A stretch of DNA of 64,000 bases, from positions 1 to 64,000 of the forward strand of contig CALMRI010000016.1 of NCBI GenBank assembly GCA_937776645.1, read 5' to 3'. The translations under genes were made by a program, and so were the position numbers. This DNA comes from an uncultured Alphaproteobacteria bacterium (GTDB lineage Bacteria; Pseudomonadota; Alphaproteobacteria; Thalassobaculales; Thalassobaculaceae). Shown here in pieces: positions 2 to 6,314 of the stretch. The stretch's first letter is position 1, and each line of letters starts with the position of its first letter. Under the pieces are notes generated by a model that saw only the letters and a program-made list of their open reading frames with translations, did no database searches and was not told where the DNA came from.

Positions 2-214
2 GAGAGCAATCCAAACTTGGTGCGCACCATGTCGGTGAAACCGCCGACCGGTTCGGGGCAGGTGCGGATGATCCGCGTTGGTGACGCCGTAGATTTTCAA
101 CCCTGCGGCGGGACCCATCTCAAAACCACCGGAGAGATCGGTAAGATCGCGGTCGGTAAGATCGAAAACAAGGGTAAGAAAAACCGCCGGATCAACGTCT
201 CGTTAGTCGAATAG
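2..214 (+). CDS. alaX: AlaX-type alanyl-tRNA editing hydrolase, 3' end
   Basis: The gene enters from the left edge (the frame is open from base 2) and ends at a TAG at 212-214. The visible ~70 residues carry the zinc-binding CxxxH motif of the tRNA_SAD editing domain as CGGTHL, followed by the usual basic tail (KIENKGKKNRRI). In full-length alanyl-tRNA synthetase this domain is followed by DHHA1. Here the protein stops about 30 residues later, as in free-standing AlaX proteins, which hydrolyse Ser- or Gly-tRNA(Ala) in the cytoplasm. The metal-binding partner motif HxxxH would lie upstream, outside the window. IS copy 1 begins 58 bp after the stop, but the visible coding end looks intact. Confidence 0.8.
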   Translation, partial: ESNPNLVRTMSVKPPTGSGQVRMIRVGDAVDFQPCGGTHLKTTGEIGKIAVGKIENKGKKNRRINVSLVE

Positions 215-287
215 GCCACGGCTAAAAGGCCTCCGACTTCGGCATTCCTACAATCAAAAGACATGATCCATGTGTAAAGCCCCCGTT

Positions 288-1085
288 CTATGTACCACTT
301 TCTGATAGGGTCTCGGGCATCGGTGGACGCATGTTCAGAGCCTGATGCGGGCGGATGTGATTGTACTGTTTCAGCCAAGTTTCGATGACGATTTGAGCCT
401 GTCTGATTGATGTGAACCACTCTGCATTGAGAACCTCCCTGCGCAGAGTGCCGTTGAAGCGTTCGTTGTATCCGTTCTCCCAGGGGCTCCCCGGATAGAT
501 ACGGATGGGCTTGATCCCAACCTTGGTAAGCCAGGTCTGAAAGTTCTCTGCGATGAACTCAGGACCATTGTCTGATCTGATGAACTCTGGTCTGCCGTGT
601 TTCAAGAAGAGCGGATAGAGGGCTTCCAGAACCTCGGCATTGCCCATTCGAGTCCTCACGGCCACGCACAGAGCTTCGCGGGTGTATTCATCCAGCACGG
701 TCAACATTTTATAGGGCCGGCCGTTGGCCAGCTTGTCATGGACGAAATCTATGCTCCAGATATGGTTCCGATATTTGGGGCGCAGCCGGATGATAGAGCT
801 GTCCTTGTGATAGAGGCGCTTCCGCTTCCTGTGACGTTGCGGTATCTGGAGACCCTCTTCCCTCCACAGCCGCTCTACCTTCTTGTGATTGACTTGCCAG
901 CCTTCAATGCGGAGTAACGCGGCAATCTTCCTGTAACCATAGCGGCCATACTGCTTTGCCAATCTGATCAAAGCCAGCCGAAGGCTGTCATCATTTTCAG
1001 GGGATGCCTCATAGCGCTGTGTGGACCGTGCCACGCCGATCGTTTTGCAAGCCCGCCGCTCGGATGATCCGAGTTTCTGACGCAC
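288..1085 (-). CDS. IS3-family transposase OrfB (DDE integrase), copy 1
   Basis: This 265-residue rve-type integrase catalyses strand transfer of the element. It has the HTH_21-like region (YGRYGYRKIAALLR) and then the DDE core: first Asp in WSIDFVHDKL, second Asp in FIRSDNGPEF, Glu in NGYNERFNGTLR. The C-terminus has the usual YNHIRPHQAL motif. The frame stays open upstream of the GTG at 1085 and overlaps the end of OrfA in the -1 frame. This fits production as an OrfAB fusion by -1 frameshifting, as known for IS3 elements. The exact slip site was not pinned. The protein is identical to that of copy 2, and no lesion is seen. Confidence 0.92.
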   Translation of the reverse strand: MRQKLGSSERRACKTIGVARSTQRYEASPENDDSLRLALIRLAKQYGRYGYRKIAALLRIEGWQVNHKKVERLWREEGLQIPQRHRKRKRLYHKDSSIIRLRPKYRNHIWSIDFVHDKLANGRPYKMLTVLDEYTREALCVAVRTRMGNAEVLEALYPLFLKHGRPEFIRSDNGPEFIAENFQTWLTKVGIKPIRIYPGSPWENGYNERFNGTLRREVLNAEWFTSIRQAQIVIETWLKQYNHIRPHQALNMRPPMPETLSESGT

Positions 1086-1117
1086 ATGGATTAGGGCCTG
1101 ACGCAGATCGGCAATCG

Positions 1118-1405
1118 TCAGACCTTCGGCTTTAGATAATCGAGGCTCTCCCGCAGGATCAGCTTATCCAGCTCAAGGTCCGCAACAATTCTCTTGAGGC
1201 GGGAGTTCTCCTTCTCAAGGCCCTTGAGCTCCTGAAGCTGGGACTTGCCCATCCCACCGTACCTCTTGCGCCAATTATAGTATGTTGCATCGCTGATGCC
1301 TGCTGATCGGCAAGCCATCTCTACACTGCTACCAGACGCCAGACTGAGCTCTATCTGACGCAGCAGGTTCAATACATCTTCATCGCAATATCGCTTCCTT
1401 GCCAT
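1118..1405 (-). CDS. IS3-family transposase OrfA, copy 1
   Basis: This 95-residue protein has an N-terminal helix-turn-helix (SGSSVEMACRSAGISDATYYNWR) followed by a leucine-zipper-like coil (LQELKGLEKENSRLKRIVADLELDKLIL), the standard DNA-binding half of an IS3 transposase. Residue 7 is Cys (codon TGC), whereas copy 2 has Ser. This is the only coding difference I found between the copies. It ends at a TGA (1120-1118), where the OrfB frame is already open. Confidence 0.92.
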   Translation of the reverse strand: MARKRYCDEDVLNLLRQIELSLASGSSVEMACRSAGISDATYYNWRKRYGGMGKSQLQELKGLEKENSRLKRIVADLELDKLILRESLDYLKPKV

Positions 1406-1471
1406 CCAAATACCTCCACACCTTCGTAAAATATCACGAATTACGTGGCACAGTTATAGGGGGGCAGGACA

Positions 1472-1730
1472 AGTCATCCGCCTCGTAGTCCAGGGTATTT
1501 GTCGCTGACAAGATCGGGTTGATATAGGCGTCCAAAACCGGTTCGATATCCATTGCGTCGCCGGCGTGGTTGAGCTTTTGGCCATGGCCCATGAACAACC
1601 CTGCGGTTTCGAGGACGCCGTGGATTACCCGGGTGCCTGACCCGCCGGTGGCGCCGATCACCACGGGCGCGTGGTCCGTTCGGGAGATACGGCGGGCGGC
1701 GAGCGCGTGCTGGATGGGTGTCAGGAACAT
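1472..1730 (-). pseudogene. Sulfotransferase-family gene, 5' fragment cut by IS copy 1
   Basis: Reading on the minus strand from the ATG at 1730, the protein runs for about 86 residues and then passes into IS copy 1 at 1471. The N-terminal part has a P-loop-like VVIGATGGSGTRVIHGVL, similar to the PAPS-binding 5'-PSB loop of sulfotransferases, followed by GLFMGHGQKLN. The remaining two-thirds, including the 3'-PB motif, is missing, and it is not found on the other side of the IS (214-272). The IS is therefore not a simple insertion here. Its proximity to pseB/pseC remnants fits a surface-glycan or flagellin modification locus. The family assignment rests only on this fragment. Confidence 0.55.
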
Positions 1731-1899: not shown

Positions 1900-2196
1900 A
1901 TGGGAACTTATCTCGACGACCTTTGGAACGACCTTGAGCAGACCTGGGATCTGGCCATGGCGGTCAATGATCTTGCCGAGGAAGAGCGCTCGGATGTGTC
2001 CAAGTCGTGGGAAGGTCATTTCAAGGCCTCGGAATTGGTCGATGTCAGTCGCACTGAGACTGAAAGCCAGGGGACGACCCCGCCGGTCAAGGTGTTCTGC
2101 ACGAATATTTATGGGTTGCAATACAACGGCGAGACCAAATATTGGATCCCGTTCCGCCACGGCGATATCGATCTGGCGAAGTTCACCGAGGATTGA
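1900..2196 (+). CDS. Hypothetical protein (98 aa)
   Basis: This short acidic protein starts MGTYLDDLWNDLEQTWDLA and ends GDIDLAKFTED. I do not recognise a family. The frame is open further upstream to about 1570, but that part is antisense to the sulfotransferase fragment and reads as noise, so I start at the ATG at 1900. There is no strong Shine-Dalgarno. Amino-acid composition and codon use look like real coding sequence. It sits between remnants, so it may be a surviving cargo gene of the degraded locus. Confidence 0.45.
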   Translation: MGTYLDDLWNDLEQTWDLAMAVNDLAEEERSDVSKSWEGHFKASELVDVSRTETESQGTTPPVKVFCTNIYGLQYNGETKYWIPFRHGDIDLAKFTED

Positions 2197-2352: not shown

Positions 2353-2820
2353 ATGTCCAAGCAAGGGCCGGTTACCGTCAATAAGCTTCTCAAGACATGC
2401 TATTCGGCATTTTTCGTGGCCGACGTGTTCAGCTTTGCGGTCAATCTGTTGATGTTGACGATGTTGGTTTTCATGTTCCAGGTATTCGACCGGGGCATGG
2501 CCAGCGGCAGCATGTCGTCCTTGTTCTTGCTGCTTTTGATGGTGGGTATAGCGCTGGCGGTTCAAGCCGCGTTGGACTCGGTGCGGGCATTTTCCTTCGC
2601 GCGCATCAGTGGTTGGATGGATCGCCGGGCCCGCCCCATTCTGCTCTCTTCGATCATCGGTGACGCGCTGGACCGCGAAAGCCTAGCTCAGCAACCGGAG
2701 CTGAATTTAATTCAAGGCATGCCAGTGACCGCGGTGATCAGCGCCGGAGATCAGACTTTGTTGGAATATATCCTGGCGCCAATCTCTCGTAGCCTTGAGC
2801 AAGCATTTAAAGAGAATTGA
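2353..2820 (+). pseudogene. Type I secretion remnant: ABC-transporter N-terminus fused in frame to HlyD-family C-terminus
   Basis: The ATG is at 2353. About the first 110 residues match the start of PrtD/HlyB-type export ABC proteins: two hydrophobic helices around AVNLLMLTMLVFMFQVFDR and SLFLLLLMVGIALAVQAAL, then the RISGWMDRRARP region. No ATP-binding cassette follows (no Walker A, signature or Walker B). The last ~35 residues (GMPVTAVISAGDQTLLEYIL, ending PISRSLEQAFKEN) look instead like the C-terminus of a HlyD/PrtE membrane-fusion adaptor. Since prtD normally precedes prtE, one in-frame deletion would create this chimera. It cannot work as a transporter. The next gene starts 8 bp later. 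The adaptor match is by eye. Confidence 0.6.
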
Positions 2821-2827
2821 GGCCGAC

Positions 2828-3889
2828 GTGACGAAAACTTTCCTCCCCTATGGCCGGCAGTTCATCGACGAGGATGACATCGCGGCGGTGACCGATGTGT
2901 TGCGTGGAGACTGGTTGACGACCGGGCCCACGGTCGAGGCTTTCGAGGTGGCGTTCGCGGCGAAGATTGGGGCCAAGCACGCTGTCGCATGTTCAAGCGG
3001 GACGGCCGGGCTGCATTTGCTGGCCCTTGCCGCCGGCCTTGGCCCGGGCGATGTGGTGATCGTCCCGACGGTCACGTTCCTCGCCACGGCCAGCGCCGCG
3101 CGCTATGTTGGTGCCGAGGTGGTCTTCGCCGATGTCGATCCAGAAACCGGTCTGATGGGCGTCTCCCAATTCCTGGAGGCCGCCGCCCGCGCGCCAGCCG
3201 GCGCTGTCAAGGCAGTCTTTCCAGTTCATTTAAACGGCCACAGCGTGGACATGCCGGCATTACGCCAGGTGGCTGGGGCGCTGTTCATTGCCGAGGACGC
3301 CTGCCATGCATTGGGTGGGCGGCATAAAGCACCCTCCGGCACGATGGTTCCGGTAGGTTCATGCAGCGCGAGCGACGCGGCGATGTTCTCCACCCATTCG
3401 GTCAAGGCAATCGCCACTGGCGAAGGCGGCGTTCTGGTAACCAATGACACCGGCTTTGCCGCGCGATTGGGGCGATTTCGCAACCACGGCATGGTGCGCG
3501 ACCCTGCGCTTTTCCAGCACCCCGAACTCGCTGTCGAGCCCGGTGAAGACGCCGCCGCGCCGTGGTATTACGAAATGCACGAACCCGGTTACAACTACCG
3601 GCTCAACGATCTGCAGTCCGCGCTTGGCCTTAGCCAGTTGCGCAGGCTGGACGACTTTGTTCAGCAGCGTCGACGGTTTCGCGATCGATATGATCGGCTG
3701 CTTGGCCCGCATGTGCGCCCGATCCAGGTCGCCGAGGGATGCGAGCCGGCTTGGCACCTCTCGGTGGTGCTGATTGATTTCGCCGCATTGGCAACGACGC
3801 GCTCGGCGGTGATGCGCCAACTGCGTGACCGGGGTATCGGAACCCAGGTTCACTACATCCCGGTGCATAAGCAGCCGTATTACCGCAAC
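2828..3889 (+). pseudogene. pseC: PseC-type sugar-nucleotide aminotransferase (DegT/DnrJ/EryC1), 3' end lost at IS copy 2
   Basis: This is a PLP-dependent aminotransferase of the PseC (UDP-4-keto-6-deoxy-HexNAc 4-aminotransferase) type. It starts at the GTG at 2828 (MTKTFLPYGRQFIDEDDIAA). The fold-type I landmarks are present: VACSSGTAGLHLLAL near residue 55, IAEDACHALGG with the PLP Asp, and the Schiff-base lysine K193 in FSTHSVKAIATGEGG. 354 native residues remain. The expected final ~30 are replaced by a few IS-derived codons (CKAPVLCTTF) before a stop in the element. The sugar specificity (PseC versus LegC-like) cannot be fixed from sequence. The truncation point is exactly the IS end, and the missing 3' part is not beyond the IS. 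Confidence 0.75.
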
Positions 3890-3904
3890 TGTAAAGCCCC
3901 CGTT

Positions 3905-4702
3905 CTATGTACCACTTTCTGATAGGGTCTCGGGCATCGGTGGACGCATGTTCAGAGCCTGATGCGGGCGGATGTGATTGTACTGTTTCAGCCAAGTTTC
4001 GATGACGATTTGAGCCTGTCTGATTGATGTGAACCACTCTGCATTGAGAACCTCCCTGCGCAGAGTGCCGTTGAAGCGTTCGTTGTATCCGTTCTCCCAG
4101 GGGCTCCCCGGATAGATACGGATGGGCTTGATCCCAACCTTGGTAAGCCAGGTCTGAAAGTTCTCTGCGATGAACTCAGGACCATTGTCTGATCTGATGA
4201 ACTCTGGTCTGCCGTGTTTCAAGAAGAGCGGATAGAGGGCTTCCAGAACCTCGGCATTGCCCATTCGAGTCCTCACGGCCACGCACAGAGCTTCGCGGGT
4301 GTATTCATCCAGCACGGTCAACATTTTATAGGGCCGGCCGTTGGCCAGCTTGTCATGGACGAAATCTATGCTCCAGATATGGTTCCGATATTTGGGGCGC
4401 AGCCGGATGATAGAGCTGTCCTTGTGATAGAGGCGCTTCCGCTTCCTGTGACGTTGCGGTATCTGGAGACCCTCTTCCCTCCACAGCCGCTCTACCTTCT
4501 TGTGATTGACTTGCCAGCCTTCAATGCGGAGTAACGCGGCAATCTTCCTGTAACCATAGCGGCCATACTGCTTTGCCAATCTGATCAAAGCCAGCCGAAG
4601 GCTGTCATCATTTTCAGGGGATGCCTCATAGCGCTGTGTGGACCGTGCCACGCCGATCGTTTTGCAAGCCCGCCGCTCGGATGATCCGAGTTTCTGACGC
4701 AC
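3905..4702 (-). CDS. IS3-family transposase OrfB (DDE integrase), copy 2
   Basis: This protein is identical in sequence to OrfB of copy 1 (265 residues, intact D, D and E residues in WSIDFVHD, RSDNGPEF and YNERFNG). The gene is intact, so the element could still be active if OrfAB is made by frameshifting. Its 3' end lies 15 bp from the inverted repeat that abuts pseC. Confidence 0.92.
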   Translation of the reverse strand: MRQKLGSSERRACKTIGVARSTQRYEASPENDDSLRLALIRLAKQYGRYGYRKIAALLRIEGWQVNHKKVERLWREEGLQIPQRHRKRKRLYHKDSSIIRLRPKYRNHIWSIDFVHDKLANGRPYKMLTVLDEYTREALCVAVRTRMGNAEVLEALYPLFLKHGRPEFIRSDNGPEFIAENFQTWLTKVGIKPIRIYPGSPWENGYNERFNGTLRREVLNAEWFTSIRQAQIVIETWLKQYNHIRPHQALNMRPPMPETLSESGT

Positions 4703-4734
4703 ATGGATTAGGGCCTGACGCAGATCGGCAATCG

Positions 4735-5022
4735 TCAGACCTTCGGCTTTAGATAATCGAGGCTCTCCCGCAGGATCAGCTTATCCAGCTCAAGGTCCGC
4801 AACAATTCTCTTGAGGCGGGAGTTCTCCTTCTCAAGGCCCTTGAGCTCCTGAAGCTGGGACTTGCCCATCCCACCGTACCTCTTGCGCCAATTATAGTAT
4901 GTTGCATCGCTGATGCCTGCTGATCGGCAAGCCATCTCTACACTGCTACCAGACGCCAGACTGAGCTCTATCTGACGCAGCAGGTTCAATACATCTTCAT
5001 CGGAATATCGCTTCCTTGCCAT
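4735..5022 (-). CDS. IS3-family transposase OrfA, copy 2
   Basis: This is a 95-residue HTH plus coiled-coil OrfA, the same as copy 1 except Ser instead of Cys at residue 7. It has an ATG start at 5022 and a TGA stop overlapping the -1 frame of OrfB. Confidence 0.92.
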   Translation of the reverse strand: MARKRYSDEDVLNLLRQIELSLASGSSVEMACRSAGISDATYYNWRKRYGGMGKSQLQELKGLEKENSRLKRIVADLELDKLILRESLDYLKPKV

Positions 5023-5088
5023 CCAAATACCTCCACACCTTCGTAAAATATCACGAATTACGTGGCACAGTTATAGGGGGGCAGGACA

Positions 5089-5881
5089 GGATGGCGAGCG
5101 CCTTGAGATGGCGATGCGTGGCGTTGACTATGTGGTGCACGCCGCTGCGATGAAGCATGTGGCGACGGCCGAATACAATCCGTTCGAATGTGTGAAGACA
5201 AATATCTATGGCGCCGAGAACGTGGTCATGGGGGCAATCCGAAGCGGGGTGAAGAAGGTGATCGCGCTGTCGACCGACAAGGCAACCAATCCGATTAATC
5301 TCTATGGCGCCACTAAACTGGCCTCCGACAAGATCTTCGTCTCTGGCAACAATCTATCCGGCGTCAGCGGCTGTAATTTTTCGGTCGTACGCTATGGCAA
5401 TGTGATTGGCTCCAGTGGCAGCGTGATCCCGTTTTTCCAAAAGCTTATTAACGACGGCGCCACCGAATTACCAATTACCAACGAACGGATGACCCGGTTT
5501 TGGATCACCTTGGAGCAGGGCGTCGCCTTCGTGCTGTCCTGTCTGGAGATGATGCAGGGTGGTGAAATTTTCGTACCGAAAATCACCTCGATGCGGGTCA
5601 CCGATCTGGCGCTAAGTATGGCTCCCGATTTGCCGCACAAACACGTCGGTATCCGTGCAGGCGAGAAGTTGCACGAAGTGATGATCTCGGAAGACGACGC
5701 CCGCAGCACCGTCGAACTCGCTGATCGCTATGCTATCCTGGCGCCGTTTCTCGAGGCCCGATACGAAGCCTACGTCAAAATGGGCGCCAGTCCGATAGTC
5801 GGGGATTTCCGCTATGCCAGCGACACGAATACCGACTGGCTTGAGGCCGAAGAATTGCGGCGGGTGATCGCCGATCTTTAG
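5089..5881 (+). pseudogene. pseB: PseB-type UDP-GlcNAc 4,6-dehydratase/5-epimerase, N-terminus lost at IS copy 2
   Basis: Reading starts directly at the IS boundary (DGERLEMAMRGVDYVVHAAA...) and continues to a TAG at 5879-5881, giving 263 residues. This is the FlaA1/PseB short-chain dehydrogenase family, which makes the first intermediate of pseudaminic acid. The STDKA and YGATK catalytic segments (ALSTDKATNPINLYGATK) and the GEKLHEVM region are present. The N-terminal ~70 residues, including the NAD-binding GxxGxxG, are missing, so the enzyme should be dead. The first internal ATG (5108) would make only a fragment. The usual order is pseB-pseC; here pseC lies upstream and both are cut at the same IS. 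Confidence 0.8.
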
Positions 5882-6314
5882 GCCGGGTTAGATCGGATCC
5901 GGTATTATTTTAACAAAAATTCCAATTTTGCCTTCGCCGTCGCGTGCGGGCGAATAGTCCGGTTTAAATGGGCCTAGTGGTCTCCTCGAGACGGATAGGA
6001 ACCATCCGGCTCGGTTAGGGGATTAATCGTCGATCCCACTGGAAGCGTGTTATTCCGACCAAAACGAGCTCGACTATGGCGCGAGTGGCCGATAATGGCG
6101 TCATGTAGCTCCTATTCCTCACCATCGATTACATTGAACGTGCTCAGGCGTGGGGCAGCCATTCGCTAGGACGGCGGGTGAGATTTCTCTGGCCTTTCGC
6201 CAGGGCGGGACGGAGGTCGGCTTGGTGTCAACATCGGCGCTCGTCTAAAGCCACTGCGTTTTATCCCGCCAGCTTACCACGGCTTGGCCAAATCCGACGG
6301 CCGGCCAGAAAGGG
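5882..6314. other. Gene-free stretch between pseB remnant and soeC
   Basis: I see no convincing gene in these ~430 bp. The only local structure noted is a small hairpin near 6192-6206 (CTGGC/GCCAG with a GAAAG loop as read on the minus strand) lying downstream of soeC. It has no good U-tract, so I do not call it a terminator. Confidence 0.4.

Follow-up and report, generated by a model that had tools for sequence, protein, structure and literature searches.

Two profiles, TIGR01842 for the PrtD/RsaD-type ABC transporter and TIGR01843 for the PrtE/RsaE/HlyD-type membrane fusion protein (MFP), are among those used for finding type I secretion components in an RTX review (PMC3034196). The ORF described here encodes 155 residues at positions 2353–2820 of the window (the whole analysed stretch of 64,000 nucleotides) and is made up, in frame, of residues 1–105 of a PrtD-type type I secretion ABC protein and the last 50 residues of a HlyD/PrtE-type MFP. 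Its frame runs uninterrupted from the ATG at 2353 to the TGA ending at 2820; the program-made ORF list puts the start of this frame further upstream, at 2251. The ORF is very probably a pseudogene, a scar left where a single deletion took out ~3.07 kb reaching from prtD into prtE of a type I secretion operon. The named relatives of the locus are Nisaea species and marine MAGs, and Nisaea is placed in the Thalassobaculaceae, Rhodospirillales; a literature search found no paper on this locus and none for Nisaea with type I secretion. The ORF stands among the following features of the window:

273–1471, minus strand: insertion sequence (IS) copy 1, 1,199 bp (ends read by eye from the sequence; 100% in the copy table)
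1472–1730, minus strand: 5′ fragment of a sulfotransferase-like gene, cut by the IS copy (62% identity to residues 17–82 of a 273-aa protein of genome G022)
1900–2196, plus strand: open gene of a 98-aa protein, family unassigned by Pfam (upstream of prtD in 8 of the 9 distinct relative loci covering the site)
2353–2667, plus strand: prtD remnant, residues 1–105, N-terminal membrane part only (TIGR01842, E = 4.2e-18; 91% DNA identity over 235 nt to prtD of the same-genus genome G002; 7 of 44 invariant residues changed)
2668–2677, plus strand: deletion junction, a 10-nt word common to prtD and prtE (9 of 10 nt alike between G002 prtD and prtE at the breakpoint)
2678–2820, plus strand: prtE remnant, C-terminal end of a HlyD-type MFP with its own stop codon (residues 106–155 including the shared word; TIGR01843, E = 1.5e-9)
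2828–3889, plus strand: pseC without its C-terminal end, cut by an IS copy (TIGR03588, E = 1.8e-121; 92% identity to residues 1–357 of 407 of G002 PseC)
3890–5088, minus strand: IS copy 2, the same element (100% in the copy table)
5089–5881, plus strand: pseB without its N-terminal ~80 residues (TIGR03589, E = 3.7e-121, profile positions 61–323 of 324, taken from a translation starting inside the IS copy; 91% identity to G002 PseB)

Comparison of the ORF with the two type I components revealed that (i) its residues 1–105 aligned to the first ~100 profile positions of TIGR01842 (NCBIfam match of residues 14–114 to positions 2–102 of 544) and shared 59–83% identity with the intact homologues from 21 relative loci; (ii) unlike the PrtD/RsaD-type transporter, it lacked the nucleotide-binding domain, retained just the beginning of the membrane domain, and was changed at 7 of 44 invariant residues; (iii) its last 50 residues aligned to profile positions 372–421 of 422 of TIGR01843 (NCBIfam match of residues 106–154) and were 92% identical to residues 405–454 of the 454-residue G002 PrtE; and (iv) unlike the PrtE/RsaE/HlyD-type MFP, it lacked everything ahead of these 50 residues. 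The parts absent from the prtE remnant are presumably the membrane anchor, the hairpin, and most of the periplasmic part. With 65.2 bits for TIGR01842 against a curated cut-off of 510.15, and 37.4 bits for TIGR01843 against 208.65, the ORF is neither a full-length PrtD-type exporter nor a full-length HlyD-type MFP by these profiles. Pfam found in it no ABC or HlyD domain and no family above cut-off, the single whole-ORF match at E ≤ 1 being PGG (E = 0.17). A family of intact small membrane proteins was rejected for the ORF, as neither Pfam nor NCBIfam supported one.

An earlier note on this DNA had read the ORF as a chimera with a PrtD-type start, a HlyD-like end, and no ATPase between them. 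Taken alone, the first 119 residues match TIGR01842 (E = 3e-18) and the last 38 residues match TIGR01843 (E = 2.9e-9), and Pfam finds no ABC transporter domain; the ATPase part belongs to the 3,069 bp that G002 has and the ORF lacks. The chimera itself therefore stands, but the junction, which had been placed near residue 115, is at codon 105/106 (window 2668–2677).

The parent operon is found in the same-genus genomes G001 (L023) and G002 (L024), both of which have the order prtD-prtE-pseC-pseB with prtD adjoining prtE. The prtD product is 725 aa in G001 and 682 aa in G002, where it is cut by the contig end, and the prtE product is 449 aa in G001 and 454 aa in G002. Matches to the 155-aa ORF at E ≤ 0.01 occur in 38 of 61 genomes, its own genome (G000) counted. 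By a hand count from the match table, 16 genomes besides G000 match the prtD half at E ≤ 1e-33; in every one of them, the prtE half is matched in a distinct frame of that contig, with 3.0–3.5 kb between the match starts.

DNA identity to G002 is 91% on either side of the junction. The breakpoint is the word CTGGA[C/T]CGCG at window 2668–2677, inside which the prtD side stops and the prtE side starts; the corresponding G001 sites, CTCGACCGGG and CTTGATCGCG, are less alike, sharing 7 of 10 nt. The distance from the prtD breakpoint to the prtE breakpoint is 3,069 bp by the G002 spacing and 3,075 bp by that of G001; each is a multiple of 3. Together with the gene order in G001 and G002 and the 10-nt word at the breakpoints, these distances directly support the single in-frame prtD-prtE deletion of ~2–3 kb that had been suggested as the origin of the ORF. 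Because the breakpoint lies in a 10-nt word that is alike at 9 of 10 positions in G002, a level of identity (at least 9 of 10 nt) reached by 21 of 400,000 random prtD × prtE position pairs, strand slippage between short repeats is the likely mechanism for the deletion; the breakpoints themselves are read directly from the alignment.

Among 385 genomes of the class, only G000 matches over residues 1–155. A recurrent fused form was likewise sought in 61 relatives, 3 genus members, and the 385 class members (overlapping sets), and none was found. One candidate, a G020 match over residues 6–148, was rejected as a fusion because the alignment had overrun: the match falls within a prtD frame of 679 aa, and the prtE end is in another frame, of 461 aa. 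A contig scan returned 6 loci in which, judged from segment ends alone, the best segments all start N-terminally and stop by residue 123.

The substitution pattern of the ORF is that of a gene released from constraint. Branch counts were obtained by the Nei–Gojobori method on three sequences and rounded for exact tests, and the N-terminal comparison with G002 covers 75 codons, since the G002 contig stops within prtD. In the prtD half, the window branch carries ~13 nonsynonymous and 4 synonymous changes, against 0.5 and 3.5 on the G002 branch; in the prtE half, the counts are ~4 and 3.5 against 0 and 3.5. Both halves together give ~17 nonsynonymous and 7.5 synonymous changes in the ORF lineage versus 0.5 and 7 in the G002 lineage (Fisher P = 0.002, on rounded counts), and the branch omega is 0.72 for the ORF versus 0.02 for the sister branch. 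The ratio on the ORF branch is indistinguishable from neutral (P = 0.35), with little power at ~25 changes. By comparison, pseC on the window branch is under constraint (omega 0.20; P = 5e-9 versus neutral; Fisher P = 0.016 versus the ORF). The 7 altered columns are among 44 that are invariant in the intact PrtD rows, of which 16 are distinct (21 loci supplied). When each intact row was left out in turn, 12 rows showed no change at invariant columns, two showed 1, and the divergent L017 and L018 showed 3 and 5, respectively. Against the pseudogene reading stand the frame without an internal stop, the 87% completeness of the assembly, which leaves room for a second copy or a lost contig, and the prtE half, which taken alone shows some constraint (omega ~0.35, our own arithmetic from small counts). 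It seems that the exporter was free of constraint earlier than pseC, which was later cut by an IS copy.

These counts bear on two other accounts of the ORF. Relaxed selection or another inactivation may have preceded the deletion, or the deletion may have proceeded in several steps, a variant of the deletion scar that does not exclude it and that we regard as conceivable but rather unlikely: the near-1 omega of the N-terminal branch could predate the deletion, but the two ends fall in a single 10-nt word, and no intermediate form is present in the two further genus members compared, G001 and G002. Far less probable is that the fused ORF is expressed and retained as a small membrane protein with its own function, for example as a dominant-negative partner or a membrane peptide. 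The open frame, whose start and stop are inherited from the parents, and the low power of a neutrality test on ~25 changes would be compatible with such a protein, but an excess of amino-acid changes on its own branch (17 versus 0.5, including the 7 invariant residues), the occurrence of the fused form in G000 only among the 385 class genomes, and the lack of an intact partner in the assembly argue against it.

The G000 assembly is a draft of 63 contigs that is 87% complete. No protein in it exceeds the TIGR01843 cut-off (best E = 1.7e-17), and none of the 16 candidates scored matches RTX (PF00353) at E ≤ 0.001; in the family, an over-cut-off TIGR01843 protein is present in 29 of 36 genomes and an RTX match in 31 of 36. 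The two same-genus genomes, which are 84 and 81% complete, have at least 149 (150 of 294 candidates scored) and 38 RTX matches, respectively. A second copy of the lost prtD and prtE parts in the assembly was also rejected: a search for prtE at E ≤ 1e-5 returns only the 50-residue remnant, and, the ORF itself aside, the closest prtD relative has 38% identity. Given the completeness of 87%, the type I MFP and RTX proteins are likely to be truly absent from G000. The earlier suggestion that a secretion system was lost at this locus is supported by the lack of another over-cut-off type I MFP and by the neutral-like evolution of the ORF. By a hand count over the 36 family genomes, RTX and MFP occur together in 27, MFP only in 2, RTX only in 4, and neither in 3. 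The association is weak, since its P of 0.04 ignores kinship, and it is not strict, since G007, G011, G016, and G032 have RTX without an over-cut-off TIGR01843 match and G009 and G028 have the MFP without RTX. A second PrtD-like ABC gene lies at L030:4363–6132 (contig C20 of G000) among metabolic genes, with no MFP gene apparent beside it.

The genes on either side of the ORF are also broken. The 1,199-bp insertion sequence, which we take to be of the IS3 type, occurs in the assembly as 10 full-length copies at 100% (273–1471 included), 1 partial copy at 100%, and 2 degraded copies at 83 and 77%; the 10 practically identical copies are a sign of recent spread. No target duplication was seen at the ends of the window copies, so their insertion was probably joined with deletion or recombination. 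The 273-aa G022 protein to which the sulfotransferase-like fragment is related belongs to PF13469 (Sulfotransfer_3, E = 1.9e-10). The cut pseC scores 405.3–405.7 bits for TIGR03588, below the cut-off of 423.5, and no PseC in G000 exceeds this cut-off, a second, full-length relative reaching 303.7 bits; an over-cut-off PseI is present at contig C24 of G000. Window 5882–6314 lacks the MFS transporter gene that in G001 sits between pseB and a dmsC-like gene. At the contig start, window 17–214 holds the 3′ end of a protein gene, presumably alanyl-tRNA editing-like, followed by the IS copy.

Microhomology junctions can arise during DNA amplification, and assembly words are usually longer than 10 nt. 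The former fact, together with a draft assembly of 63 contigs at 87% completeness, would allow the junction to be an assembly or amplification artefact in an organism with an intact operon, which we nevertheless judge highly improbable, since the shared word of 10 nt is below the usual assembly-word size, the missing prtE part is absent from all other contigs, the remnants bear the substitutions of an unconstrained gene, which an artefact would not produce, the adjacent genes are likewise broken, and the search for RTX repeats came up empty.

For the deletion scar, we propose the following course of events. The operon would no longer have been needed in this lineage, which fits the lack of another over-cut-off type I MFP and of RTX matches. 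Most likely, strand slippage or other RecA-independent pairing at the 10-nt repeat removed ~3.07 kb, taking most of the ABC transporter, including the ATPase, and ~90% of the MFP; that the frame was kept would have been a one-in-three chance. The product is without the parts for energising or forming a type I channel. As the known parts of type I systems imply, a remnant that has lost the ATPase, the bulk of the membrane domain, and almost the entire MFP cannot work as an exporter. IS insertions would afterwards have cut pseC, pseB, and the sulfotransferase-like gene.

It is plausible that the lost exporter carried a glycosylated or S-layer protein, as had been proposed; the linkage to pseC and the absence of RTX from the assembly speak for such a cargo, but an RTX-motif ORF (at least 3 RTX-like motifs by a self-made pattern) was found near an intact operon in just 2 of 14 genomes, G014 and G022, read over stretches of unequal length. 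These candidate-substrate ORFs, L063:7538–10168 in G022 and L064:3636–6296 in G014, encode 877 and 887 aa with 9 RTX-like motifs and lie ~6–8 kb beyond pseB in the opposite orientation. No RTX-motif ORF was found in the stretches read of the 12 further genomes or in L035 and L036. G003 and G027, which are congeneric with G022 and G014, show none in ~20 kb.

The relatives were read at 12 other loci; since L026 and L034 represent one contig, as do L029 and L037, 10 of these are distinct. In all 10 distinct loci, pseC follows prtE, and pseB follows pseC in 7 of the 8 whose contig continues, being absent in G020 (L028). A block of the 98-aa protein gene, prtD, prtE, pseC, and pseB is thus common to most relatives read (L025, L026, L027, L035, L036, and others), often with sulfotransferase and glycosyltransferase genes alongside. 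The 98-aa protein has 74–86% identity in 9 loci, two of which are the same contig (L023, L025–L028, L032, and L034–L036), and its gene has an omega of 0.10 versus G001; in the compared loci its conservation exceeds that of the exporter, and its frame is still open in the window. Pfam gave no match for it at E ≤ 0.01, and the gene was absent from G005 (L029/L037) in a search up to E ≤ 10. Tentatively, the intact block might be a dedicated surface programme that couples type I RTX export with pseudaminic acid synthesis and includes the 98-aa protein as a component not yet described; this lineage might have dropped the whole programme, exporter and RTX proteins, with the chimera as its scar. We consider this broader reading possible, though doubtful.

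On its own, the 155-aa ORF matters little, except that annotation may misname a deletion pseudogene as a type I secretion protein. It marks the loss of type I secretion in one species, within a family where this secretion is widespread, and it led to the block that, in most relatives read, links pseudaminic acid genes with the exporter and with a conserved protein of 98 aa. This shared block is a more interesting lead than the pseudogene. The ORF itself is a clear, well-documented, and ordinary deletion pseudogene. It resembles the chimeric pseudogenes that are formed by deletion between short direct repeats in its short-word breakpoints, its kept frame, and its neutral-like evolution; there is no difference of principle from that kind, and what the deletion joined here are two partner proteins of one machine.
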